A program made the position numbers and the translations under genes. Below the pieces are notes generated by a model. The model had not been told where the DNA came from and made no database searches. It was given only the letters and a program-made list of their open reading frames with translations. From Halomarina oriensis (GTDB taxonomy: Archaea > Halobacteriota > Halobacteria > Halobacteriales > Haloarculaceae), in contig NZ_WSZK01000034.1 of the NCBI RefSeq assembly GCF_009791395.1, positions 1 through 64,000 on the forward strand: a stretch of DNA of 64,000 nucleotides, given 5' to 3'. Below, piece by piece: positions 2,153 through 59,813 of the stretch (position 1 is its first letter; every line of letters begins with the position of its first letter).

Positions 2153-3250
2153 TCACTCGTCGAGTCCGGGAGGGTCAGAACGACCGATGTGAATCTCGCG
2201 GGCCTCGATGTCCTCCAGCGCGGCGACCTGTCCACCGACGTCGACGAGGCCCTCGCCCGTGTCGACGGTGAGCGCGGCCGTCTCGCGGTTGGTGCCGACG
2301 GAGACGTCGACGACCTCGCCGTGGACGGTTCGGCTCGCCCCGCCCTCGACGTCGCGGCCGACGATGCTGGCGTAGAACGGGCCGTCGGTCGCCGAGAGGT
2401 CGCTCACGCACCGTCGGATGGTCGCGTAGCGACGCGGGAACGCGGGGCGGCTGTCGTCGTGCTGGACCGTCGTCGCACTCGTCCAGACGACCGTGTTGAG
2501 GAAGCCCGAGACGAGAAAGCCCAGTTCCGACCGGTTGAAGATGACGCCGTAGCGGTCGCGGTCCGACCGGAGTGCGTCTCGGGTCGCGTACACCGAGTAG
2601 CTCCCGTCGGCGACGGCGACGACGGGCGTCGTGAGTCCACGGCGGGCGCGCGTGTGCGTCGCAATCCTGGCGTAGTCGTACTCCTCCGGTCCGGGCGCGT
2701 CGACCGCCGGCGAGAGCAGGAGTTCGATGGTGACGCCCGCTTCCCGTCGCTCTTGGAGTTCCTCCTCGAAGCGACCGACGAGGTCGGGCGAGACCGAGAG
2801 TACGAGTTCGTACTCGGCGGACTCGATGACGTCCGCGAGGTAGCGTAGGATGGTCGAGCGGGACTTGACGAGCGTCACGGCCTCCGAGTCGCGGACCGGC
2901 GAGGTGTACTCGCGTTCGAGGTCCTCGACGAGGTCGTCGAGCGAACTCCGGAGGTCAGTGAACGCCTCCTGCGGGTCGACGGCGAGCACGCGCATGGGCC
3001 GTGACTCCTGGAGTTCGACGAGACCGACGTTCGCCAGCCCACGGACGGTGTCGTAGACTCGTGGCTGGGGGATGTCGGTGTACTCGGCGATCTCCGAGGC
3101 GGTCAGTTCGCCGTGCCGGAGGATGGCGAGGTAGGCCTCGGACTCGTACTCGCCGAAGTCGAACCGACCGCTGAGGCGTTCGAGTGTCGCGCGCGGGTCG
3201 CCGGAACTCATCGGTCGTCCGTTGGCGAGGTGACCAAAGAGGTTGTTCAT
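2153..3250 (-). CDS. TrmB-family sugar-responsive transcriptional regulator
   Basis: 365-residue regulator. The N-terminal winged helix (about residues 25-95) has the TrmB pattern YESEAYLAILRHGELTASEIAEY followed by IPQPRVYDTVRGL; the middle is a phospholipase-D-like ligand domain, and a beta-rich C-terminal domain follows. TrmB proteins bind sugars and control sugar transport and glycolysis genes. It lies just downstream of glucose dehydrogenase on the same strand (41 bp gap), so control of gdh or of the flanking glucosidase is likely. An alternative start is the Met at 3211 (MSSGDP), which fits the usual family length better; neither start has a clear TATA. The effector sugar is unknown. 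Confidence 0.87.
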   Translation of the reverse strand: MNNLFGHLANGRPMSSGDPRATLERLSGRFDFGEYESEAYLAILRHGELTASEIAEYTDIPQPRVYDTVRGLANVGLVELQESRPMRVLAVDPQEAFTDLRSSLDDLVEDLEREYTSPVRDSEAVTLVKSRSTILRYLADVIESAEYELVLSVSPDLVGRFEEELQERREAGVTIELLLSPAVDAPGPEEYDYARIATHTRARRGLTTPVVAVADGSYSVYATRDALRSDRDRYGVIFNRSELGFLVSGFLNTVVWTSATTVQHDDSRPAFPRRYATIRRCVSDLSATDGPFYASIVGRDVEGGASRTVHGEVVDVSVGTNRETAALTVDTGEGLVDVGGQVAALEDIEAREIHIGRSDPPGLDE

Positions 3251-3291: not shown

Positions 3292-4353
3292 TCAGTAGGT
3301 GTCGAACTGGACCGCGGTCTTCAACACGGCGTCGTCGGCGACGAACGCGTCGGGCGCGTCGTCGAGGTGGTAGACGCCGCTGACGAACTCGTCGACGAAC
3401 CAGTCGGGGAGGTCGGTGAGCGTGTCGACGGCCGACTCGAAGTGGGCCGCACCGGAGTTGACGCTCCCGACGATGGCCTTGTTGTTCATCACGACGTCCT
3501 TGTGGAACGAGCCACCGTCGACCTCGAACGACCACGACTCGGGGACACCCAGCAGCGCCGCGACGCCGCCGGGGGCGAGCGCGTGGATCCCGTCGAACGC
3601 GTGGCGGGCGTAGCCCGTCGCCTCGAAGACGAGGTCCACAGTCTCGTGGCTCTCGGGCACTTCGGCGACCGGCGTCCGGCGAGAGTCGACGTACGTCGCG
3701 CCGAGTCGTTCGATGATGTCGATGCTCGGGTCGGGCCGGTCGCGCCGGCCGAGACAGTAGGTGCGCTCGTAGTCGTCGAGCATCGCCAGCGTGAGCAGGC
3801 CGAGCGGGCCGTTCCCGAGGACGAGCGCGGATTCGGGTCGCCAGTCGAACGCCGACCGCGAGACGTAGGCGTGGTGGAGCGCCTTCTCCGTGATGGAGAT
3901 GGGTTCGACGAGGAACCCCAGCGGCGCGAGGTGTTCGGGGATGGGCACCAGCGTCTCCTCGGGGCTGGTGAAGTAGTCGCTCATGAAGCCGTGTGCGCCA
4001 GAGATACCGCGTTCGAGACACTGGTCGGGTGGGGCCATGTCGGCCTGCCCGCGCTCGAAGTAGTCGTTCGTCCGTCCCTCGGGTCGTCGACGGACGGTGG
4101 GGACGACCACGTCGCCCACCTCGAACGACGTGCCGTTGGGGTCCTCGACGACGCCGACCGCCTCGTGGCCCAGGACGAGGTGGTCGTCACCCTCCGGATA
4201 CCCCCCGTGTGTCCCGTCGATGACCTCCCGGTCGGTCCCGTCGACGCCCACCCGAAGCGTCCTGACGAGCGCTTCCCCGGTCGCTGGCTCCGGGCGGGGC
4301 TTCTCGACGACCGTCGGCGACGTCTCGCCGCGGCGGATGGCTACTGCTCGCAT
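3292..4353 (-). CDS. gdh: Glucose 1-dehydrogenase, NAD(P)-dependent, zinc MDR family
   Basis: Oxidises beta-D-glucose to gluconolactone, the first step of the archaeal semi-phosphorylative Entner-Doudoroff route. The 353-residue length and zinc ligands match the characterised Haloferax mediterranei enzyme: Asp38 (GVDGTD), His63-Glu64 (LGHEAVGV) and Glu150 (FLVEPISI). The nucleotide fold is GNGPLGLLTL (about 180-189), followed by CLGRRDRPDP, whose two arginines are the expected NADP-phosphate contacts. The gene is transcribed toward the TrmB regulator and diverges from the GH13 glucosidase, which would supply its substrate. The promoter has a strong TATA about 30 bp before the ATG and a GAGTA-type site directly upstream of it. 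Confidence 0.95.
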   Translation of the reverse strand: MRAVAIRRGETSPTVVEKPRPEPATGEALVRTLRVGVDGTDREVIDGTHGGYPEGDDHLVLGHEAVGVVEDPNGTSFEVGDVVVPTVRRRPEGRTNDYFERGQADMAPPDQCLERGISGAHGFMSDYFTSPEETLVPIPEHLAPLGFLVEPISITEKALHHAYVSRSAFDWRPESALVLGNGPLGLLTLAMLDDYERTYCLGRRDRPDPSIDIIERLGATYVDSRRTPVAEVPESHETVDLVFEATGYARHAFDGIHALAPGGVAALLGVPESWSFEVDGGSFHKDVVMNNKAIVGSVNSGAAHFESAVDTLTDLPDWFVDEFVSGVYHLDDAPDAFVADDAVLKTAVQFDTY

Positions 4354-4375: not shown

Positions 4376-4402
4376 GGATAAATATTTACCCGATTCTGAG
4401 TA
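4376..4402 (-). promoter_or_regulatory. gdh promoter: TATA plus TrmB-like TAC(C/T)-N7-GAGTA site
   Basis: The reverse-strand TATA element TAAATATTTATCC covers about 4378-4390. Partly overlapping and upstream of it (4387-4402, plus-strand reading) is TACC-N7-GAGTA followed by AAC. This differs by one base from the TACT-N7/8-GAGTA element published for Halobacterium TrmB. The same element recurs before the gapN-like gene, uspA and ppc in this window. Confidence 0.6.
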
Positions 4403-4502
4403 AACACTGAATCCCCCCGACCGACGACTCGGCGACTCGGCTGTGTCGGACGGGTGTGGCGACGGGAGAAAACCGGGCGACCACAGTCCTGCCCCAAACG
4501 GT

Positions 4503-7372: not shown

Positions 7373-7406
7373 GAGTAATTAATTCGTTTGTGAGTAAACT
7401 TCTTAG
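7373..7406 (+). promoter_or_regulatory. Promoter of the gapN-like gene with GAGTA half-sites
   Basis: TAAT-N8-GAGTA (7380-7396) followed by AAC, with a further GAGTA at 7373-7377. A TATA-like CTTCTTA at 7399-7405 is about 27 bp before the ATG at 7430. The element sits a few bases upstream of TATA, as in the uspA (36.0 kb) and ppc promoters. Confidence 0.5.
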
Positions 7407-7429: not shown

Positions 7430-8860
7430 ATGGCAGTGGGAACGGTACATCACGGCAAGACGAACCTCATCGACGGTCGCTGGGAACAGTCGGACGCCAC
7501 CATCGAGGTCGAAGACCTGGCAGAAGGCGGGGTCTTCGCCGAGATAGCGAGTGCGACGGCGGAGCAGGCGACCGACGCCGTCGCCGCCGCCCACCGTGCG
7601 AAGGCTGCGATGCGGGAGACGACCATCGTCCAGCGCGCCGGGTGGCTGGAGGAGATAGCGGCGGGACTCGTCGAGCGAAAGGAGGAACTCGCGGAGGTCA
7701 TCGTCCGTGAGGCGGGCAAGCCGGTCTCCAGCGCCCGTGGCGAGGTGGACTCCGCGGCCGAACGCTTCCGACGTGCCGCCGAGGAGGCGCGCAACCAGCA
7801 GGGCGAGTTCATCGAGGGCACTACCGAGGGCCACGAGGGCTGGGAGGCCATCGTCAAGCCCCAGCCGGTCGGGACGGTCCTCTGTGTCGCCCCCTACAAC
7901 TACCCGCTGATGACGACGGCGCTCCAGGTCGCGCCGGCGCTCGCGGCGGGCAACAGCGTCGTCCTCAAGCCCGCCTCGAAGACGCCCATCAGCAGCGCCA
8001 TCCTCGCGGAGGTCGTCTCGGAGGTCGGCCTCCCCGACGGCGGCTTCAACTTTGTCGCCGGCTCCAGCGGCGACATCGGCGACACGCTCGCCGGTGACGA
8101 CCGCATCGACGCCGTCGCCATGACCGGGTCGTCGAGCGCCGGCACACACGTCGCCCGCGAGTCGGGCATGGTCGAACTCCACATGGAACTGGGCGGGAAC
8201 GCCCCGGCCATCGTCTTCCCGGACGCCGACCTCGACGCCGCGGCTGCCGACTGCGCGAAAGGCTCGTTCAAGTACGCCGGGCAGCGCTGCTCGGCCGTCT
8301 CGCGCGTCCTCGCCCACGACGACGTCCACGACGAGATGGTCGAGCGCATCGAGGCGGAGATGGACGACTGGCGACCCGGCGACCTCTTCGAGGAGGACAC
8401 CGCCATCGGCCCGCTCATCGACGAGTCGCAAGCCGAGTGGGTCGAGGAACTCGTCGAGGACGCCGTCGAGAAGGGCGCGACGCTCGTCCGCGGTGGCGAG
8501 CGCGACGGCAAGACGTTCGAGCCGACGCTGCTCGCGGACGTGCCCCACGACGCCCGTATCGTCCACGAGGAGCAGTTCGGCCCCGTGGCGGTCCTCACCC
8601 GCTTCGCCGACGAGGAGGAAGCGCTGAGCATCGCCAACGGCGGTGACCTCGGGCTCGACGCCGCCGTCTTCACCGCCGACCACGACCGCGGGATGCGCGT
8701 GGCCGACCGCATCGAGGCCGGCGCGGTCCGTCTCAACGGCGCACCCTCGCACGGACTCGGTGACATCCCGTTCGGCGGCGTGAAAGACTCCGGTATCGGC
8801 CGGGAGGGCATCGGCTACTCCATCGACGCGTTCACGACCACGAAGAGCATCGTCCTCTGA
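7430..8860 (+). CDS. NAD(P)-dependent aldehyde dehydrogenase, GapN-like
   Basis: 476-residue ALDH-superfamily enzyme. The catalytic Cys287 is in YAGQRCSAVSRV and the general base Glu253 is in MELGGNAPAIV. The C-terminal GGVKDSGIGREGIGYS stretch is characteristic of the non-phosphorylating glyceraldehyde-3-phosphate dehydrogenase / lactaldehyde dehydrogenase subgroup. GapN would convert glyceraldehyde-3-phosphate directly to 3-phosphoglycerate with NADP reduction, without ATP. Its place between a sugar kinase and pyruvate kinase supports a glycolytic role, but glyceraldehyde or lactaldehyde oxidation remains possible. The ATG at 7430 was preferred to an in-frame codon seven residues upstream because of the TATA spacing and the family N-terminus. 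Confidence 0.87.
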   Translation: MAVGTVHHGKTNLIDGRWEQSDATIEVEDLAEGGVFAEIASATAEQATDAVAAAHRAKAAMRETTIVQRAGWLEEIAAGLVERKEELAEVIVREAGKPVSSARGEVDSAAERFRRAAEEARNQQGEFIEGTTEGHEGWEAIVKPQPVGTVLCVAPYNYPLMTTALQVAPALAAGNSVVLKPASKTPISSAILAEVVSEVGLPDGGFNFVAGSSGDIGDTLAGDDRIDAVAMTGSSSAGTHVARESGMVELHMELGGNAPAIVFPDADLDAAAADCAKGSFKYAGQRCSAVSRVLAHDDVHDEMVERIEAEMDDWRPGDLFEEDTAIGPLIDESQAEWVEELVEDAVEKGATLVRGGERDGKTFEPTLLADVPHDARIVHEEQFGPVAVLTRFADEEEALSIANGGDLGLDAAVFTADHDRGMRVADRIEAGAVRLNGAPSHGLGDIPFGGVKDSGIGREGIGYSIDAFTTTKSIVL

Positions 8861-8904: not shown

Positions 8905-10668
8905 ATGCGCAACACGAAGATAGTCTGTACCCTCGGCCCCGCCTCGAACGACCGCGCGACCATCGACGGCCTCGTCGCCGCCGGGATGTCGGTCGCACGA
9001 CTGAACGCCAGCCACGGCACTCCCGAAGACCGTGCGGCCGTCATCGAACGGGTCCGGGCGGCCGACGCCGACAGCGACGACACCGTCGCCGTCCTCCACG
9101 ACCTGCCCGGCCCGGAGATTCGGACCGCGCCGCTCGACGACCCCATCCACCTCGAAGACGGGTCGGAACTCCGGTTCGTCGAGGGCGACGACGCGACGCC
9201 CGAGGAGGTCGGCCTCTCCGTCGCCCTCGACGGCGTCTCGGCGGGCGACGTGGTGTTGCTCGACGACGGCCGTATCGAGACCACGGTCCTCGCCGTCGAG
9301 GACGACGGCGTCCGCGTCCGCGTCGACGACGGCGGCGAACTGTCGGGACGCAAGGGCGTCAACGTCCCCGGCGTCGACCTCGGCCTGGACCTCGTCACCG
9401 AGCGTGACGAACGGGAACTCGACCTCGCGGCCGAGGCGGGCGTCGACTTCGTCGCGGCGAGTTTCGTCCGCGACGCCGCGGACGTCTACACCATCAGCGA
9501 GGCGCTCGAATCACGAGGTGCGGACATCCCCGTCATCGCCAAGATAGAGCGTGCGGACGCCGTCGAGAACCTCGAAGGCATCGTCGACGCCTCGTACGGC
9601 ATCATGGTCGCTCGCGGTGACCTCGGCGTCGAGTGCCCGCTCGAACAGGTGCCGCTCATCCAGAAGCGCATCATCGCCCGCTGTCGGGAGACCGGCACCC
9701 CCGTCATCACCGCGACGGAGATGCTGGACTCGATGGTCCACTCCCGGCGACCGACCCGCGCGGAGGCGACCGACGTCGCCAACGCCGTCCTCGACGGGAC
9801 GGACGCGGTGATGCTCTCCGGTGAGACGGCCGTCGGCGACCACCCACCGCACGTCGTCGAGACGATGGACCGCATCGTCGGGGACATCGAAGCCAGCGAG
9901 GAGTACCACGAGTCACTGGAAGAACGCGTCCCGACCGCTGGCGACACCCAGACCGACGCGCTCGCGCGGTCGGCCCGCTTTCTCGCCCGCGACATCCGCG
10001 CCAGTGCGGTCGTCGCCGCCAGCGAGTCCGGTTACACCGCCCGCAAGGCCGCGAAGTACCGCCCGAACGTTCCCGTCGTCGCCGCGACACCGAACGACGA
10101 GGTCCGCCGCCAACTCGTCCTCTCGTGGGGTATCGTCCCTCGTCGCATCGAACTGCTCACCGAGGGAGCCGACCAGGTCATCCAGAACGCCGCGCAGTCG
10201 GCGCTCTCGACCGGCGTCGCCGAGTCCGGCGACACCGTCGTCGTCCTCTCGGGGATGATGACCGACCTCGACGGGACGGACACGACGAACCTGCTCAAGG
10301 TCCACGTCGCCGCCGAAATCGTCGTCTCCGGGCGGAGCGTCGTCGCGGGCCGGGTCGCCGGACCGCTCTTCCGGAGCGGCGACGGCGACCTGAGCGAAGC
10401 GCCGGAGGGCGCCATCGTCGCCCTCACCGCCGGGTTCGACGGCGAACTCACCGGCGACTACGACCGCGTCGCGGGTGTCGTCGACGCTCGCCCCGGTCTG
10501 ACGGGGTACGCCGCCGTCGTCGCCCGCGAACTCGGCATCCCGATGGTCAGCGACGCGACCGTCCCCCCGGAACTGGACGACGGCGAGACGGTGACCGTCG
10601 ACGCCGAACGCGGCGTCGTCTACGAGGGCGACGTCGTCCGCGAACACGACGACCTGCGCTGGCACTGA
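8905..10668 (+). CDS. pyk: Pyruvate kinase with C-terminal swivelling domain
   Basis: Converts phosphoenolpyruvate and ADP to pyruvate and ATP, the last glycolytic step. The catalytic barrel is complete: KIVCTLGPAS at the start, Lys213 in VIAKIERAD, metal ligands in ARGDLGVE (Asp239) and TEMLDSM. The allosteric C domain ends near residue 470. About 110 further residues form a PEP-utiliser swivelling-type domain, which makes the protein 587 residues, longer than the classic 470. That domain has TGYAAVVARELGIP where phosphotransferring relatives have T-S/C-H, so the phosphorylatable His is missing; such extra domains are known in Bacillus-type and haloarchaeal pyruvate kinases and are thought to be structural or regulatory. 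The gene has its own TATA. Confidence 0.96.
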   Translation: MRNTKIVCTLGPASNDRATIDGLVAAGMSVARLNASHGTPEDRAAVIERVRAADADSDDTVAVLHDLPGPEIRTAPLDDPIHLEDGSELRFVEGDDATPEEVGLSVALDGVSAGDVVLLDDGRIETTVLAVEDDGVRVRVDDGGELSGRKGVNVPGVDLGLDLVTERDERELDLAAEAGVDFVAASFVRDAADVYTISEALESRGADIPVIAKIERADAVENLEGIVDASYGIMVARGDLGVECPLEQVPLIQKRIIARCRETGTPVITATEMLDSMVHSRRPTRAEATDVANAVLDGTDAVMLSGETAVGDHPPHVVETMDRIVGDIEASEEYHESLEERVPTAGDTQTDALARSARFLARDIRASAVVAASESGYTARKAAKYRPNVPVVAATPNDEVRRQLVLSWGIVPRRIELLTEGADQVIQNAAQSALSTGVAESGDTVVVLSGMMTDLDGTDTTNLLKVHVAAEIVVSGRSVVAGRVAGPLFRSGDGDLSEAPEGAIVALTAGFDGELTGDYDRVAGVVDARPGLTGYAAVVARELGIPMVSDATVPPELDDGETVTVDAERGVVYEGDVVREHDDLRWH

Positions 10669-22834: not shown

Positions 22835-22864
22835 CCCTTATCCAATCGGTAAGGGTATATACCT
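22835..22864 (-). promoter_or_regulatory. ABC operon promoter with palindromic operator
   Basis: CCCTTA (22835-22840), 9 bp spacer, TAAGGG (22850-22855): a perfect inverted repeat between the TATA element (reverse-strand GGTATATACC, about 22855-22864) and the start codon at 22831. This is the position expected for repressor binding. The TrmB protein encoded immediately upstream is the obvious candidate ligand. Confidence 0.6.
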
Positions 22865-22914
22865 ACTGTCGGTACAACGGCCGTTGTAAACGGAGCCGCC
22901 CGGTGATTCGTCCG

Positions 22915-23997
22915 TCAAGCGTCGGGACCCCCACTCGAGCGAATCACACGTTCGACCGTGATAGTCGTCGCCTCCACCTCCTCGACGATAGCGCCCCAGC
23001 CGCCGACGCTCACCTCTCGTCCGTCCGTCTCGACCAGGAGCGTCACCTGGCCGGCGAGTTGGAGGACGCCGTCGGAGGCCGACCCGGGCGTGAAGCGGGT
23101 GCCGGTGACGCGGCCGTCGAACGAGACGGGGTCGCTGCTGGTGATGTCGAACCCTTCGACCCCCACCTCGACCGTCGCTCCCTCGTCGAGGAGGCCACGG
23201 ACGTCGCGGACGCAGTACCGGATGTCGACGTACTTGACCGGTGGCTCCCCCGTCGGTTCGGCGTACAGCGGGTCGCAGTGCTCCCACAGCGAGGTCATGA
23301 AGTACCAGTGGAAGACGTAGGTGTGCGTTCGGTCGTCGACGACGACGCCGTAGAGGTCGTAGGAGTCGGGATGGTGTGCGAAACACGTCTGGTGACGGTC
23401 GACGAGCGCGACGAACGGTGCCGGGAGTCCGCGGTGGCGTGCCTCGGTACACGCCCCCCGTAGTCGGTCGAGAGCCGGCGGTTCGCCGGCGGGGTCGGTG
23501 TGGATGGAGAGCCGAATCGAGACGCCACGGTCGTGAGCGTTCATCAGCGCCGGGCGGAGCCGCTCGAAGTGTGTCGGTGTGACCGAGAGCTGAATCTGGT
23601 TCGTCGCCGACGAGATGAACTCCTCGGCCCGCTTGAGGACGATACCGAACTCCCGGACGATGGTCGCGTGGTTCCCTTCGAGTTCGGGTTGCTCCCAGCG
23701 CTCTTCGACCTCTTGGGCGGCCGCGTCGAGGCGTTCGGCACGGCCACGGAGCGTCGACAGCACCTCGTCGGGGCTGTGTGCGCTCGCACGGAGCGAGTCG
23801 TTCTGGTAGGTCTCGACGAACCCGCGGCTCTCGAGCGCGTCGAGCACGTCGTAGATACGAGGTTTCGGGACGTCGCTGGCCGCCGCGAGTTCCGTCGCCG
23901 ACGCCGTGCCGAGGTCGAGCAACGTGACGTACGCTGTGGCCTGGTACGGCGACAGCCCCGCGTCCTCCAGCGTGGCCACGAGTTCCTCGGAGTCCAT
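22915..23997 (-). CDS. TrmB-family regulator, probable repressor of the adjacent ABC operon
   Basis: 360-residue regulator. The N-terminal winged helix (MDSEELVATLEDAGLSPYQ, then ASDVPKPRIYDVLDALESRG) has the TrmB signature. A phospholipase-D-like sensor domain (about 105-265) follows, then a beta-rich C-terminal domain (about 275-350). A coiled segment with the predicted recognition helix and linker lies at 70-105. It is 83 bp upstream of the binding-protein gene on the same strand, the standard arrangement of TrmB with its target transporter. An open frame continues upstream to 24420, but the reading there is the antisense of the AKR gene; the ATG at 23997 gives the family N-terminus. The inducer is presumably the transported sugar. 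Confidence 0.88.
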   Translation of the reverse strand: MDSEELVATLEDAGLSPYQATAYVTLLDLGTASATELAAASDVPKPRIYDVLDALESRGFVETYQNDSLRASAHSPDEVLSTLRGRAERLDAAAQEVEERWEQPELEGNHATIVREFGIVLKRAEEFISSATNQIQLSVTPTHFERLRPALMNAHDRGVSIRLSIHTDPAGEPPALDRLRGACTEARHRGLPAPFVALVDRHQTCFAHHPDSYDLYGVVVDDRTHTYVFHWYFMTSLWEHCDPLYAEPTGEPPVKYVDIRYCVRDVRGLLDEGATVEVGVEGFDITSSDPVSFDGRVTGTRFTPGSASDGVLQLAGQVTLLVETDGREVSVGGWGAIVEEVEATTITVERVIRSSGGPDA

Positions 23998-24037
23998 ACG
24001 GGACGTGGACGAGCCAGGAACGTTAAACTCCGCCGCC

Positions 24038-35563: not shown

Positions 35564-36013
35564 TCACTCCCCCCTGACGAACGTCACCGGGCAGGGCGCG
35601 TTCAGGATGACCTCCTGTGCGGTCGACCCGAAGACCGCCTTGCCGGTCGGCGAGCGTTTGCGGCCGCCGACGACGACGAGGTCCGCCTCGAACTCCTCGG
35701 CCAACCGCACGATGGTCTCGCCCTCCTGCCCGACCGCACCGTGGTAGGTGAACTCGATGCCGGCGTCGGTCATCGCGTCGCCCAACTCGCGGATGGTGAC
35801 GTAGCGTTTCGCCACCACGTCGGGCGTCACCTCGGCGTCACGGTCGAAGTCGAGCGCCTGTCGTGTCTCCCGGTAGCCCTCCTTCGAGAAGACGTGGGCG
35901 AGTTTCACCGTCGCGCCCGCCGGCCCCGCGATGTCCGCCGCCGTCCGTGCCAGTGCGTCGATTCGGTCCTCGTCGGTCTCCCCGACCGCCACGAGGACGG
36001 TGTCAAGACTCAT
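35564..36013 (-). CDS. Universal stress protein UspA family, single domain
   Basis: 149-residue UspA-fold protein. It starts MSLDTVLVAVGETDEDR and ends with the nucleotide loop VVGGRKRSPTGKAVFGSTAQEVI, which keeps the G-2x-G-9x-GS pattern with small changes, so ATP binding is possible. A strong TATA lies 25-35 bp before the ATG and a GAGTA-type element lies directly upstream, shared with ppc, gdh and the gapN-like gene. It is the only stress protein here that appears tied to the sugar regulon. It lies just past the 3-prime end of ppc on the same strand. Confidence 0.9.
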   Translation of the reverse strand: MSLDTVLVAVGETDEDRIDALARTAADIAGPAGATVKLAHVFSKEGYRETRQALDFDRDAEVTPDVVAKRYVTIRELGDAMTDAGIEFTYHGAVGQEGETIVRLAEEFEADLVVVGGRKRSPTGKAVFGSTAQEVILNAPCPVTFVRGE

Positions 36014-36036: not shown

Positions 36037-36071
36037 ACTTAATAAAACGGAATGTAATTCGGACCCGAGTA
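36037..36071 (-). promoter_or_regulatory. uspA promoter: TATA plus TAAT-N8-GAGTA site
   Basis: The reverse-strand TATA is GTTTTATTAAGT (about 36037-36048). Upstream of it, in plus-strand reading, TAAT-N8-GAGTA followed by AAAT spans 36055-36071. The half-site layout and distance to TATA match the gapN-like promoter at 7.4 kb. Confidence 0.5.
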
Positions 36072-36085
36072 AATTTTTCTCCAGG

Positions 36086-38794
36086 TCAGCCGGTGTTCTT
36101 CATCCCGGCGGCGATACCCTTGACCGTCAGGCGGAGTGTCCGGTCTTCGAGGTCCGTGCGGTGGGTTCGGTCGAGGAGTTGCATCTGGAGGTAGTTCAGT
36201 GGGTCGACGTACGGGTTCCGTCGCTGGAGGTTCTCGACCAGCCAATCGCGGCTGATGAGGCGCTCCTCTTCGGTGACGTCGAGGACGAGGTCGCGGGCAC
36301 GCTCGTACTCGTCGGTGATACGAGCGAACACGGTGGTTCGGAGGTCGTCGTCGGCCAGTTCGGCGTAGCCCGAGGCGATTTCGAGGTCCGTACGGGCGAG
36401 CGAGAGCGCCGCGTTGTCGAGCATCGTCCCGAAGAAGGGCCACTCGCGGTACATCTCCCGGAGCGTCTCGACGTCGCCGCCGTCGTCGAGGTACGCCTCC
36501 AGCCCCGCGGCCAGCGAGTACCAGCCGGGGATGATACACCGGGCCTGCGTCCAGGAGAACACCCACGGGATGGCTCGCAGGTCCTCGACGGTCCGCTCGC
36601 CCGAGCGTGAGGCGGGCCGTGACCCGAGGTTGAGGTTCTCGATGACGGTGATGGGGGTGGCCTGCTCGAAGAACGCGACGAACCCGTCGGTCTCCAGCAG
36701 GTCACGGTAGGCCCGTCTGGCGGCGGGTGCGGCCGTCTCCATCGCCTCGCGCCACTCGTTTTTGACGCGCACCCGGTCGCCGTCGAGCGCCCGGTGGCGT
36801 GCTCGAATCTGCGCGTTGAGCATCTGTTCGAGGTTCCGCTGGGCGATACGCGGGTTGGCGTACTTCTCGGCGATGGCCTCGCCCTGTTCGGTGAACTTCA
36901 CCTGCCCGGTGACGGTGTCGGCGGGGAGCGCCAGTAGCGCGTCGTTCATCGGGCCGCCGCCACGCGAGATGGACCCGCCGCGGCCGTGGAACAGACGCAG
37001 GTTCACGTCGTAGTCGTCGCAGATGGCGGCCAGTCGCTTCTGGTTTCGATGCAGCGACCACTGGGCGGCGAGGTAGCCGTTCTCCTTGTTCGAGTCGGAG
37101 TAGCCGAGCATGATCTCCTGCGTGCCGTTGCGGGCGGCGACGGCCGCGGCGTACGCCTCGTTCTCGAACAGCGTCCCCATGATACGCCGGGCCCCGGAGA
37201 GGGCGTACTCGGTTTCGAGGAGGGGGACGACGTCCAGTCCGCAGTAGCCCGGCAGTTCGACCACGTCGGCCTGGTCGGCGAGGAACAGCACTTCGAGGAC
37301 GTGACTCGGCTCCTCGCACATCGAGATGCAGTAGGTGTCGATGGCGTCGACGCCGAACTCCCCCTGCCACTCGGCGGTCCGCTCGAACAGTTCGAGCACC
37401 TTCTCGGCCGTCTCCGAGCAGTCCGTCCGGTCGTGCACGTCGACGAGCGGTTCGTCCTGCATGATGGCCTCGGTCAGCAGGTCGACGCGCTCGTCCTCGT
37501 CCATCGCGGCGTAGTCGACGCCCTCTCGCTCCAGCGTCTCGGTGACCGCCTGCGTGTGGTTCTGCTGGTGGTCGCGCAGGTCGAGACTCGCCAGCGAGAA
37601 CCCGAACGTCGACACCTGCCGACGCAACGGGTCGACGTGCGCCTCGGCGACCGACCCCGCACCGTTCGCACGGAGGTCGGCCGCGAGCGCGTCGAGGTCA
37701 CGGGAGAGCGCGCCCTCACCCTCGTAGCCACCCGGCCGCACGCTGTCGACGCGCACGAGGCGTTCGCGCATCAGCTTCAGCAGTTGGCGGTACGGTTCGT
37801 CCGGGTAGCGTGACTCGGCCTCCTCGGCGACGTTCGGGAGCGCGCCCGCGTGTTCGGCGAGACAGTGAGCGACGTCGTCGCCCACCTCGATACGGGTCGC
37901 GTCCTGACTGACGACGCCCGAGAGGCGTTTCAGCTCCTGGCGATAACGCGAGAGGACGACCGCACGCTGGCGCGTCAGCGTCTCTTCGGTCACGTCCGGG
38001 GTGACGTAGGGGTTGCCGTCCCGGTCGCTACCGGCCCACGAGCGGAACTCGAACAGTTTCGGCACCTCGACTCCGGGATACGCCTCGCCGAGTTCCGACT
38101 CCAGTTCGTCGTACACCTCGCCGACCACGTCGAACAGCGTGTTCTCCAGATACCACTGGACGTTGAGCGCCTCGTCGGTCACCTCCGGACGGCGTTTGCG
38201 GACCTGTTGGGTCTGCCAGAGACTCGTCACCTCGGCTTCCAGCGCCCGGTCGATGCGCTCGCGTTCGTCGTCGGTCAGTCGGCGTTCGTCGAGCGTCTCG
38301 ATGTGCCCGGCGATGGAGCGGAGTTTCGCCTTCACCGTCTTCCGTCGCGCTTCCGTCGGGTGGGCGGTGAACGTCGGTTCGATGAGCACGTCGTCGAGGA
38401 CGCGCTGGACGAGTTCCGGGTCGGCCTCGGCGTCGACCAGCGTGTCCACCGCCGCCGCGACGCTGTCGGCGAGCGTCCCCGACTGCGTCCCTCGGCGGAC
38501 CGCCCGGACCCGTTCGCGCTCCTCGGCGAGGTTCACCAGTTCGAAGTACGACGTGAACGCCCGTGTGACCTCTCCCTGCCGCGAGGCCGAGAGGTCGGCG
38601 AGCGCGGCGTCGAGCGCCTGTCGGGTCTCGGCGTCGCCCCGACGGTAGTCGATGGCGGCCCCGCGGACCTCTTCGACCGTCTCGAACGCACCCTCGGTGG
38701 ACAGGTCCGCCAGGACGTCACCCAACAGCGCGCCGAGTTCCCGTACGTCCTGGTCGACCCTCCTGTCATGCAGTCCCGTGTCACTCATACACAC
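36086..38794 (-). CDS. ppc: Phosphoenolpyruvate carboxylase
   Basis: 902-residue bacterial-type PEPC that carboxylates PEP to oxaloacetate and so refills the citric acid cycle. Catalytic His145 lies in FTAHPTEARR, the PEP-binding glycine loop is HGRGGSISRGGGP (about residue 600), and the C-terminal catalytic loops and the ending GIAAGMKNTG are intact. The first ATG (38794) and an in-frame ATG two codons later (38788) are both at leaderless distance from the TATA box. Haloarchaea often have this enzyme rather than the short archaeal PEPC. Its promoter carries the best match to the TrmB motif in the window, and a TrmB-family gene lies just upstream. Confidence 0.96.
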   Translation of the reverse strand: MCMSDTGLHDRRVDQDVRELGALLGDVLADLSTEGAFETVEEVRGAAIDYRRGDAETRQALDAALADLSASRQGEVTRAFTSYFELVNLAEERERVRAVRRGTQSGTLADSVAAAVDTLVDAEADPELVQRVLDDVLIEPTFTAHPTEARRKTVKAKLRSIAGHIETLDERRLTDDERERIDRALEAEVTSLWQTQQVRKRRPEVTDEALNVQWYLENTLFDVVGEVYDELESELGEAYPGVEVPKLFEFRSWAGSDRDGNPYVTPDVTEETLTRQRAVVLSRYRQELKRLSGVVSQDATRIEVGDDVAHCLAEHAGALPNVAEEAESRYPDEPYRQLLKLMRERLVRVDSVRPGGYEGEGALSRDLDALAADLRANGAGSVAEAHVDPLRRQVSTFGFSLASLDLRDHQQNHTQAVTETLEREGVDYAAMDEDERVDLLTEAIMQDEPLVDVHDRTDCSETAEKVLELFERTAEWQGEFGVDAIDTYCISMCEEPSHVLEVLFLADQADVVELPGYCGLDVVPLLETEYALSGARRIMGTLFENEAYAAAVAARNGTQEIMLGYSDSNKENGYLAAQWSLHRNQKRLAAICDDYDVNLRLFHGRGGSISRGGGPMNDALLALPADTVTGQVKFTEQGEAIAEKYANPRIAQRNLEQMLNAQIRARHRALDGDRVRVKNEWREAMETAAPAARRAYRDLLETDGFVAFFEQATPITVIENLNLGSRPASRSGERTVEDLRAIPWVFSWTQARCIIPGWYSLAAGLEAYLDDGGDVETLREMYREWPFFGTMLDNAALSLARTDLEIASGYAELADDDLRTTVFARITDEYERARDLVLDVTEEERLISRDWLVENLQRRNPYVDPLNYLQMQLLDRTHRTDLEDRTLRLTVKGIAAGMKNTG

Positions 38795-38813: not shown

Positions 38814-38847
38814 TCTAAAAAAGACTACTACTCAGTTCCGAGTAAAT
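38814..38847 (-). promoter_or_regulatory. ppc promoter: TATA plus perfect TACT-N7-GAGTA element
   Basis: The reverse-strand TATA is CTTTTTTAGAC (38814-38824). Five bases upstream lies TACTCAGTTCCGAGTA (38829-38844), an exact match to the TACT-N7-GAGTA element reported for Halobacterium TrmB and followed by the same AAA(T/C) as in the other three sites. In Halobacterium a site upstream of TATA goes with activation. Confidence 0.7.
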
Positions 38848-38887: not shown

Positions 38888-40027
38888 TCAGTGTCCCCCG
38901 GGGGGTTCGGTGTCGGCCACGTCGACCGACGAGTCGTCGCCGGGGTCGGCGACTTCGAGCGTCACCTCGTCGGCCTCGACGTCCTCGACGAACGCGCCGC
39001 GCCCGCCGACGGTGTACCGACCGGTCTCCGTCTCGACGACGAGCGAACTCTCGACGGGGAAGGTGTTGTTCACCGGGACGACCATCCCCTGTCGAACCTC
39101 GACGAGTCGCCCGCGCAGTTCCGTGGCCGCCGGTTCCTCGGTGCGGTCGGACGGGTCGTCGGCGTCGAGCGCGCGCCCGCGTACCGTAGCGACGATGGGG
39201 GTCTCCTCTCGCAGGTGGAGCGTCGCCTGCAGGACCGCCTGCCGGAAGTCGCGGTAGGTGTCGGGAAGCGGCCGTCGGGGGGCGACGGCGACCTGCTCGG
39301 CGTTCGGCCAGTAGTTCCCGAAGAACGACCCGACCATCACGGGGGCGAGCTGTTCCTGTGTGAACGTGATGGCCTGCTCCCCGCTGTTCGAGCGCGTCAC
39401 CATCGCCTGTGGCGCGATGACGCTCCGGGTCCGGTCGGCGGTGACCATCGTCGGCATCGCCTCGTACCAGACGCGGACGACACTCCCGAGACCGGCCAGT
39501 TCCTCGTCCAGTCCGGTCGCGCCGGGGTCGACGCTGGTCACTACGAGCAGGACGAGGAGGCCACGCTCGACGGCGTCACGGAGCGACGACTCGACCTCCG
39601 AGAGTTGACTGTAGGGGACCGAGAGGATGACCTCCTCGCTGGCCTCGTCGATGAGCGCCGCGATGCGCTTGCGGACCGTCACCCGTGATTTGACGACTTC
39701 GAACTCGTCGGCCGACTGCGGGGCCGTCGTGTACCGGTCTTCGAGCGCGGGGCGCATCCGCTCGACCTCCCCGGAGAGCGTCTCGATGACCTCCTCGGGC
39801 GGGTTGGCACGAATCGTCGTCGGTACGACGTGGTCGTTGACGGTGACGAACCCACGGGATTCGAGGTTCTCACTGATGCTGTAGACGTAGCGCTTCGAGA
39901 CGCCCGCGTCGTCCGCGACCGTACTGGCCGTCGCCTCCCCGTGTTCCAGCAAGACGAGATAGGTGTCGATCTCCTTCTTCGAGAAACCGAACTGCTCCAG
40001 CAGGCCGGCGAGCGCCGAGTCGTCCAT
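38888..40027 (-). CDS. TrmB-family regulator, candidate global sugar regulator
   Basis: 379-residue protein. The N-terminal winged helix (QFGFSKKEIDTYLVLLEHGE, then DAGVSKRYVYSISENLESRGFV) is of TrmB type. The central phospholipase-D-like sugar-sensing domain (about 110-265) contains ITFTQEQLAPVMVGSFFGNYWPNAE. The C-terminal beta domain includes LVEVRQGMVVPVNNTFP and VGGRGAFVEDVEADEV. The VPTTIRANPPEEVI linker and overall layout recall the glucose-responsive TrmB of Halobacterium (VNG1451C), so it may be the orthologous global regulator. That cannot be proven without an alignment. It sits between ppc and the divergent glucoamylase and has its own TATA at 40053-40064. Confidence 0.87.
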   Translation of the reverse strand: MDDSALAGLLEQFGFSKKEIDTYLVLLEHGEATASTVADDAGVSKRYVYSISENLESRGFVTVNDHVVPTTIRANPPEEVIETLSGEVERMRPALEDRYTTAPQSADEFEVVKSRVTVRKRIAALIDEASEEVILSVPYSQLSEVESSLRDAVERGLLVLLVVTSVDPGATGLDEELAGLGSVVRVWYEAMPTMVTADRTRSVIAPQAMVTRSNSGEQAITFTQEQLAPVMVGSFFGNYWPNAEQVAVAPRRPLPDTYRDFRQAVLQATLHLREETPIVATVRGRALDADDPSDRTEEPAATELRGRLVEVRQGMVVPVNNTFPVESSLVVETETGRYTVGGRGAFVEDVEADEVTLEVADPGDDSSVDVADTEPPGGH

Positions 40028-59390: not shown

Positions 59391-59813
59391 ATCGCTCTGT
59401 CGCTCTCAGGGTAAGCGTTCTCCCAACCCGAGTTGGGGGTTCTTATACTGCTCCTCGGACGCGTCGTGCTCCTCGGCCGGGAAGAGCGGCGGAAGGTGGT
59501 GGGGGAGTGGGGGGGAGCGTACTCGGCCGAATCGGCCGCCACGTGCCTCTGACTGTGCCGTCGACCGGCAGTGGTCGTTACTCGCTGTACCGTAAATCGG
59601 TGGTGCCTACCCCTGTTGGCCGATCAAGTCACTCCGGCCTCGACGTGTGACGACCGTCGCAGTGAGCGTGGTCGTCGGTCGAGGGGCGAAACCGGTGGCT
59701 CCGCCGTTCACGAGCCGTGAACCGAACGAGAGAACCACGGGCGACCGGACGGGAGCGACACGACCCGCGAGGAGGTGACCGGGGCCGAGCGTCGCGGCCG
59801 GTCGGAGCGACGG
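59374..59813. other. 440 bp intergenic region upstream of hyuA
   Basis: No gene is supported. It holds the two hyuA-proximal palindromes, a TATA-like element at 59441-59450, CGGCCG direct repeats flanking AAT (about 59524-59540) and G-rich runs near 59498-59515. The rest shows nothing I can interpret. Confidence 0.45.
59422..59450 (-). promoter_or_regulatory. hyuA promoter candidate: TATA and CCCAAC-N4-GTTGGG palindrome
   Basis: The reverse-strand TATA GTATAAGAAC (about 59441-59450) is followed downstream by the perfect palindrome CCCAAC (59422-59427)/GTTGGG (59432-59437), next to the predicted transcription start. A repressor site is the simplest reading; the leader would be about 45 nt. 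Confidence 0.5.

Follow-up and report, generated by a model that had tools for sequence, protein, structure and literature searches.

A candidate TrmB operator at sugar-degradation promoters of Halomarina oriensis and related haloarchaea

The locus and the shared palindrome

The 64-kb stretch of Halomarina oriensis DNA analysed here (the window) has a G+C content of 68%. On its minus strand, a gene for an orthologue of TrmB, the haloarchaeal sugar-sensing regulator (2153..3250), lies directly downstream of gdh, the glucose dehydrogenase gene (3292..4353; PF16912). On the plus strand, a gene for a gapN-like aldehyde dehydrogenase (7430..8860), whose closest NCBIfam model is the archaeal NADP-dependent GAPDH with a score under the cut-off of that model, is followed after 44 bp by pyk, the pyruvate kinase gene (8905..10668). 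Further along, again on the minus strand, the phosphoenolpyruvate carboxylase gene ppc occupies 36086..38788, with the universal stress protein gene uspA downstream of it (35564..36013) and a distant TrmB-family paralogue upstream of it (38888..40027).

Symmetry alignment of one element from each of the gdh, gapN, ppc and uspA promoters gave a common 20-bp palindrome, TTTACTC-N6-GAGTAAA. A preliminary description of this DNA had located the four elements, and re-reading of the window confirmed their places. The gdh copy (TTTACTCAGAATCGGGTAAA on the gene strand) occupies 4385..4404 on the minus strand, at -51 to -32 from the start codon, with one mismatch. The copy in the gapN-pyk promoter (TTAATTCGTTTGTGAGTAAA) is found at 7379..7398 on the plus strand, likewise at -51 to -32, with two mismatches. 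On the minus strand, the uspA copy (TTTACTCGGGTCCGAATTAC; 36054..36073) has three mismatches and extends from -60 to -41, and the ppc copy (TTTACTCGGAACTGAGTAGT; 38827..38846) has two and extends from -58 to -39 from the ATG at 38788. A putative TATA box of ppc, TTTTTTA, could be read at 38816..38822 on the same strand, at about -34 to -28.

The core of the palindrome is TACT-N7/8-GAGTA, the motif of Halobacterium TrmB, and it is exact at ppc. As a core, this element of the preliminary description holds; the N7 and N8 spacings do not represent two variants, because a single spacing fits all four sites once they are aligned by symmetry. The same geometry, immediately upstream of a TATA box, had also been claimed for all four promoters. 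However, the edge nearest the start codon lies at -32 in the gdh and gapN promoters, at -39 in that of ppc and at -41 in that of uspA. Only at gapN is GAGTAAA the half next to the TATA box, as gdh, ppc and uspA are encoded on the minus strand. In the window, exact TACT-N7-GAGTA occurs once, at 38829 (ppc). GAGTAAA occurs five times on the plus strand, four of them within these palindromes, and TTTACTC is absent from that strand of the 64 kb.

Chance, conservation and further sites

Matches were counted genome-wide by pattern, and the reversed pattern served as the control. A scan of the kind suggested in the preliminary description, here with TACT-N7-GAGTA, gave an excess over the control, with 7+6 matches (13 strand-wise) against 1+1 (2). 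For the 20-mer with up to three mismatches, 36 places were found versus 13 for the control pattern, and the gdh palindrome, with its single mismatch, was the top match of the whole genome. A matrix built only from the gdh, gapN and uspA sites of relatives placed the gdh, gapN, ppc and uspA sites at ranks 1-4 in the window, with scores of 30.0, 28.8, 22.1 and 18.5 for these ranks, followed by 10.2 and then 4.6. At the score of the weakest site (18.5), at most 0.005 matches per window are expected by chance. Matrices trained on gdh alone or on uspA alone returned an identical top four. The training sites were picked by their likeness to the consensus of the window, so that the matrix test is not fully independent, and the fixed spacing across relatives is less circular evidence than the ranking. 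The fifth-best palindrome of the window (59577-59596, score 10.2) lies between genes, some 200 bp ahead of a hydantoinase/oxoprolinase gene; its spacing differs from that of the other sites and it is probably a chance match.

Orthologous promoters were taken mostly from 59 related genomes, which include Haloarcula species and Halorarius litoreus of the same family. With a match defined as three mismatches or fewer and the expectation derived from dinucleotide shuffles (0.02-0.15 across gene sets), the palindrome was present in the promoters of 20/30 gdh, 17/20 gapN, 9/16 uspA and 5/30 ppc orthologues. The uspA count is slightly inflated by a few loci that had been fetched for holding the palindrome. 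The gapN site is found at -50/-51 in the relatives, with one exception in which the start codon was placed differently. The gdh site is mostly at -50/-51 and nearer, at -42 to -46, in several members of one genus, and the uspA site is at -58 to -61 in eight of nine cases. That the four elements are a chance likeness among A+T-rich promoters within a G+C-rich genome has next to no likelihood, given the matches expected at the weakest score, the frequencies at gdh, gapN and uspA against 0.08-0.15 expected from shuffles of those very promoters, and a spacing that is constant across genera.

The ppc operator is the least conserved of the four. It lies at -58 in H. oriensis, at -54 in Halorarius litoreus and farther out in three other genera, and is reduced to the core in one congener; taken alone, it could possibly be a recent or marginal site. 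In Haloarcula argentinensis and Haloarcula vallismortis, the palindrome of the uspA gene beside ppc takes the variant form TACTAC-N4-GTAGTA, with its position kept at -59.

The palindrome is not confined to this stretch. An unbiased search of the relatives with at most one mismatch returned the promoters of gdh, gapN and uspA together with that of a gluconate-dehydratase-like gene (gad), and also those of a class I aldolase, a GAPDH (gapI-like) and a small conserved protein, which were named from their N-terminal sequences. In H. oriensis, contig C49 has palindromes ahead of gad, of a second trmB and of a fumarase/aspartase-like gene, and contig C16 has one ahead of a ROK glucokinase-like gene. 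The names gapN, gad and ROK protein are tentative, as they denote family matches under the curated NCBIfam cut-offs. The sugar regulon proposed in the preliminary description is supported for glucose oxidation and uspA, and for ppc in this lineage with a patchy occurrence among relatives; it is not local, since sites lie on further contigs. The pyk promoter had rightly been described as lacking the element (at three mismatches or fewer, 0/11 orthologous promoters contained it). It is hardly an exception to the regulon, because pyk begins 3-98 bp after gapN in many genomes, and a separate pyk site never occurs. This is as expected if the two genes share an operon, as gapN and pyk probably do in H. 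oriensis.

The predicted reader of the palindrome

The protein encoded at 2153-3250 contains the TrmB DNA-binding domain (PF01978) and a sugar-binding domain (PF11495) and scored 591 bits against NF047392, the equivalog model of haloarchaeal TrmB, which has a cut-off of 500 bits. It is 65.5% identical to the TrmB of Haloarcula amylolytica, and both have the recognition helix IPQPRVYDTVR. A second orthologue on contig C49 reached 547 bits with the same helix. Four TrmB-family proteins were found in the H. oriensis genome: the one on contig C49 and three full-length regulators within 40 kb of the window (2153-3250, about 22838-24000 and 38888-40027), the three being set among two sugar ABC transporter clusters, amylases and GH15 enzymes.

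The preliminary description had taken the protein at 38.9-40.0 kb for TrmB, and this paralogue might be thought to read the palindrome, at the adjacent ppc as well as at gdh, gapN and uspA. Its gene directly precedes ppc, and the protein contains both TrmB domains. However, it scored 125.6 bits against the cut-off of 500, is 25-28% identical to true TrmBs and has VSKRYVYSISE in place of the TrmB recognition helix; we consider it very improbable as the reader, and the orthologue is the protein at 2153-3250.

The identity of the motif could be examined with published binding data for Haloarcula hispanica, for which H. amylolytica served as a proxy, the correspondence being made by gene identity and neighbourhood. 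In H. amylolytica, palindromes with three mismatches or fewer are present at fbp/paaH, ppsA, ribC, an MFS sugar porter and a neighbouring universal stress protein (USP) gene, the orthologues of H. hispanica TrmB ChIP peaks 1, 10, 11, 5 and 14, respectively. Five of the 44 matches in that genome thus fall on the 15 published TrmB sites, far above chance. The overall excess of the palindrome is small there (44 versus 37 for the control) and the evidence lies in the placement of the sites. Because the matches coincide with five published peaks, the palindrome can be equated with the haloarchaeal TrmB operator, in agreement with the preliminary description. Among near-complete genomes, the palindrome with at most one mismatch occurred in 18/31 with TrmB and in 0/12 without it (p = 0.0004, a value that ignores relatedness). 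Its presence ahead of the second trmB gives further support. We regard it as rather probable that the palindrome is a TrmB operator and that it is read by the TrmB of 2153-3250. TrmB binding in H. oriensis, its response to sugar and the direction of regulation are what we infer from sequence.

Another candidate for the reader is GfcR, a PyrE-like HTH-phosphoribosyltransferase that activates the degradation of glucose and fructose and that would bind beside the BRE when sugar is present and recruit basal factors. The genes for GAPDH I and pyruvate kinase of Haloferax volcanii are activated by GfcR, and loss of GfcR hampers growth of H. hispanica on glucose (PMC11519228). The palindrome-bearing genes are catabolic, their -51 to -32 placement fits an activator, and gfcR is directly behind gdh in many relatives and near gad in H. 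oriensis. Nevertheless, the palindrome equals the TrmB motif and coincides with TrmB ChIP targets of gluconeogenesis, among them fbp and ppsA. The gad site, which spans the TATA box to the start in five genomes, is ill suited to an activator, and near-perfect palindromes were found in 0/6 near-complete genomes with GfcR but without TrmB (p = 0.02, again ignoring relatedness). These three points weaken GfcR as the sole reader, and we find it distinctly unlikely that GfcR reads the palindrome. The literature searched yielded no DNA motif for GfcR. In several relatives, gdh is followed directly by gfcR and then by trmB, and GfcR and TrmB may be co-transcribed there under the palindrome. In H. oriensis, gfcR is on contig C49, near gad and the second trmB.

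Operator position, sign of regulation and comparison with known systems

Haloarchaeal transcripts are mostly leaderless, and on this assumption the TATA box and BRE positions were read off the sequence. The operators then fall into three classes. At gad, the palindrome covers the TATA box to the start (about -29 to -10). At gdh, gapN and the second trmB, it covers the BRE up to the TATA box. At uspA, ppc and the glucokinase-like gene, it is 7-11 bp further upstream, and the ppc copy overlaps the presumed BRE by two bases.

In H. hispanica, repressed TrmB targets have the motif over the BRE and activated ones generally have it further upstream (PMC10817205). The preliminary description had deduced activation from a position upstream of the TATA box, which is not supported at gdh and gapN, where the site covers the BRE, or at gad. 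Activation of all four genes by TrmB without glucose would be in line with the majority of the H. hispanica targets, which are activated from upstream sites (PMC10817205), and with the uspA and ppc sites, which are clear, or nearly clear, of the BRE. However, the gdh and gapN sites occupy a position tied to repression in H. hispanica, the gad site covers the TATA box to the start, and a cell would gain little from expressing its genes for glucose breakdown in the absence of glucose. Activation of all four is unlikely in our view, although it keeps some probability. For gad, gdh and gapN-pyk, we predict that repression without sugar is likelier than activation, because their sites cover the BRE or the TATA box; this also fits the role of these genes in sugar degradation. 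For uspA and ppc, activation without sugar or a weaker repression is possible. Either sign may apply to ppc, in view of its two-base overlap with the presumed BRE and of the need for anaplerosis on sugar.

Under the mechanism that we propose, the TrmB of 2153-3250, a predicted winged-helix sugar sensor, would bind the 20-bp palindrome, perhaps together with the TrmB of contig C49. TrmB would sit on the palindromes when sugar is absent and be released when sugar is present. At gad (-29 to -10) and at gdh and gapN-pyk (-51 to -32), bound TrmB over the TATA box or the BRE would block TFB/TBP, and the genes of the semiphosphorylative Entner-Doudoroff pathway would be kept off until sugar is present. 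At uspA (-60 to -41) and ppc (-58 to -39), the site is about 7-9 bp further upstream and would leave the TATA box free. It is a tentative suggestion, somewhat short of even likelihood, that TrmB has been rewired here from an activator of gluconeogenesis to a direct off-switch of the Entner-Doudoroff genes gdh, gad and gapN-pyk. The operator would act at three set distances from the start codon (over the TATA box, over the BRE and roughly a helical turn upstream), which would let a single protein exert different signs or strengths at different genes, and a gdh-gfcR-trmB operon would be shared with the opposing activator GfcR.

In H. hispanica, TrmB (HAH_1548; Hackley et al. 2024) acts chiefly as an activator of gluconeogenesis (fbp, gapII), exerts no direct repression on glycolytic enzymes, and binds at gdh while gdh expression is unchanged (PMC10817205); the last two findings count against the mechanism proposed here. 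The H. hispanica regulon resembles the one described here in the partially palindromic operator, the regulator gene near gdh, and gdh and USP promoters among the sites (ChIP peaks 4 and 8; PMC10817205). The variant-palindrome uspA of H. argentinensis and H. vallismortis may be the counterpart of the TrmB-bound USP HAH_1264. H. hispanica TrmB is bound mainly without glucose, and the same is predicted for H. oriensis. In contrast, the H. oriensis sites concentrate on gdh, gad, gapN-pyk, the glucokinase-like gene and ppc, with none at ppsA. The TrmB of Halobacterium salinarum (VNG1451C) shares the motif core TACT-N7/8-GAGTA and a dual activator/repressor model set by position relative to the promoter (PMC3794607, PMC4158304). 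It differs in its global reach, with about 113 promoters under its control, including pyk and ppsA as a control point, and in belonging to a species without growth on sugars. GfcR of Haloferax volcanii and H. hispanica acts on overlapping sugar-degradation genes, and gfcR lies behind gdh in relatives of H. oriensis; unlike TrmB, it belongs to an unrelated protein family and activates with sugar present (PMC11519228). In Thermococcales, TrmBL1/Tgr is also a TrmB-family regulator on an inverted repeat, TATCAC-N5-GTGATA, whose position relative to the TATA box sets the sign (PMC4158304), although sequence and spacing of that glycolytic motif are different.

A conserved set of TrmB operators is ordinary in kind and new in its targets. 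The novelty lies in direct TrmB-type sites on Entner-Doudoroff genes across many genera, compared with H. hispanica, the best-studied relative, which was reported to be without direct glycolytic repression. No published link between ppc and TrmB was found in the literature searched, and the ppc site is restricted to certain lineages. The conserved operators at gdh, gad and gapN-pyk predict direct TrmB repression of glycolytic genes in many sugar-degrading haloarchaea. If true, this would be an example of the target set of one regulator being rewired along with metabolism, and the three operator positions would provide a natural series for relating operator placement to the direction of regulation in archaea.

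At ppsA, a canonical target in gluconeogenesis, the H. oriensis genome lacks the palindrome, which counts against the TrmB reading; ppsA promoters have a site in Haloarcula and partial cores in some other relatives. The ppsA match of H. oriensis (C16:63087-63869) ends at query residue 258 of 477, unlike that of nearly all near relatives, which possibly reflects a frameshift, an assembly error or a real truncation of the PEP synthase. In four congeners, a protein of about 100 aa that matched no Pfam family (MMWQDLIFLAGSVFSLFVLVPTLRDSMANV...) is encoded about 80-100 bp downstream of near-perfect palindromes.
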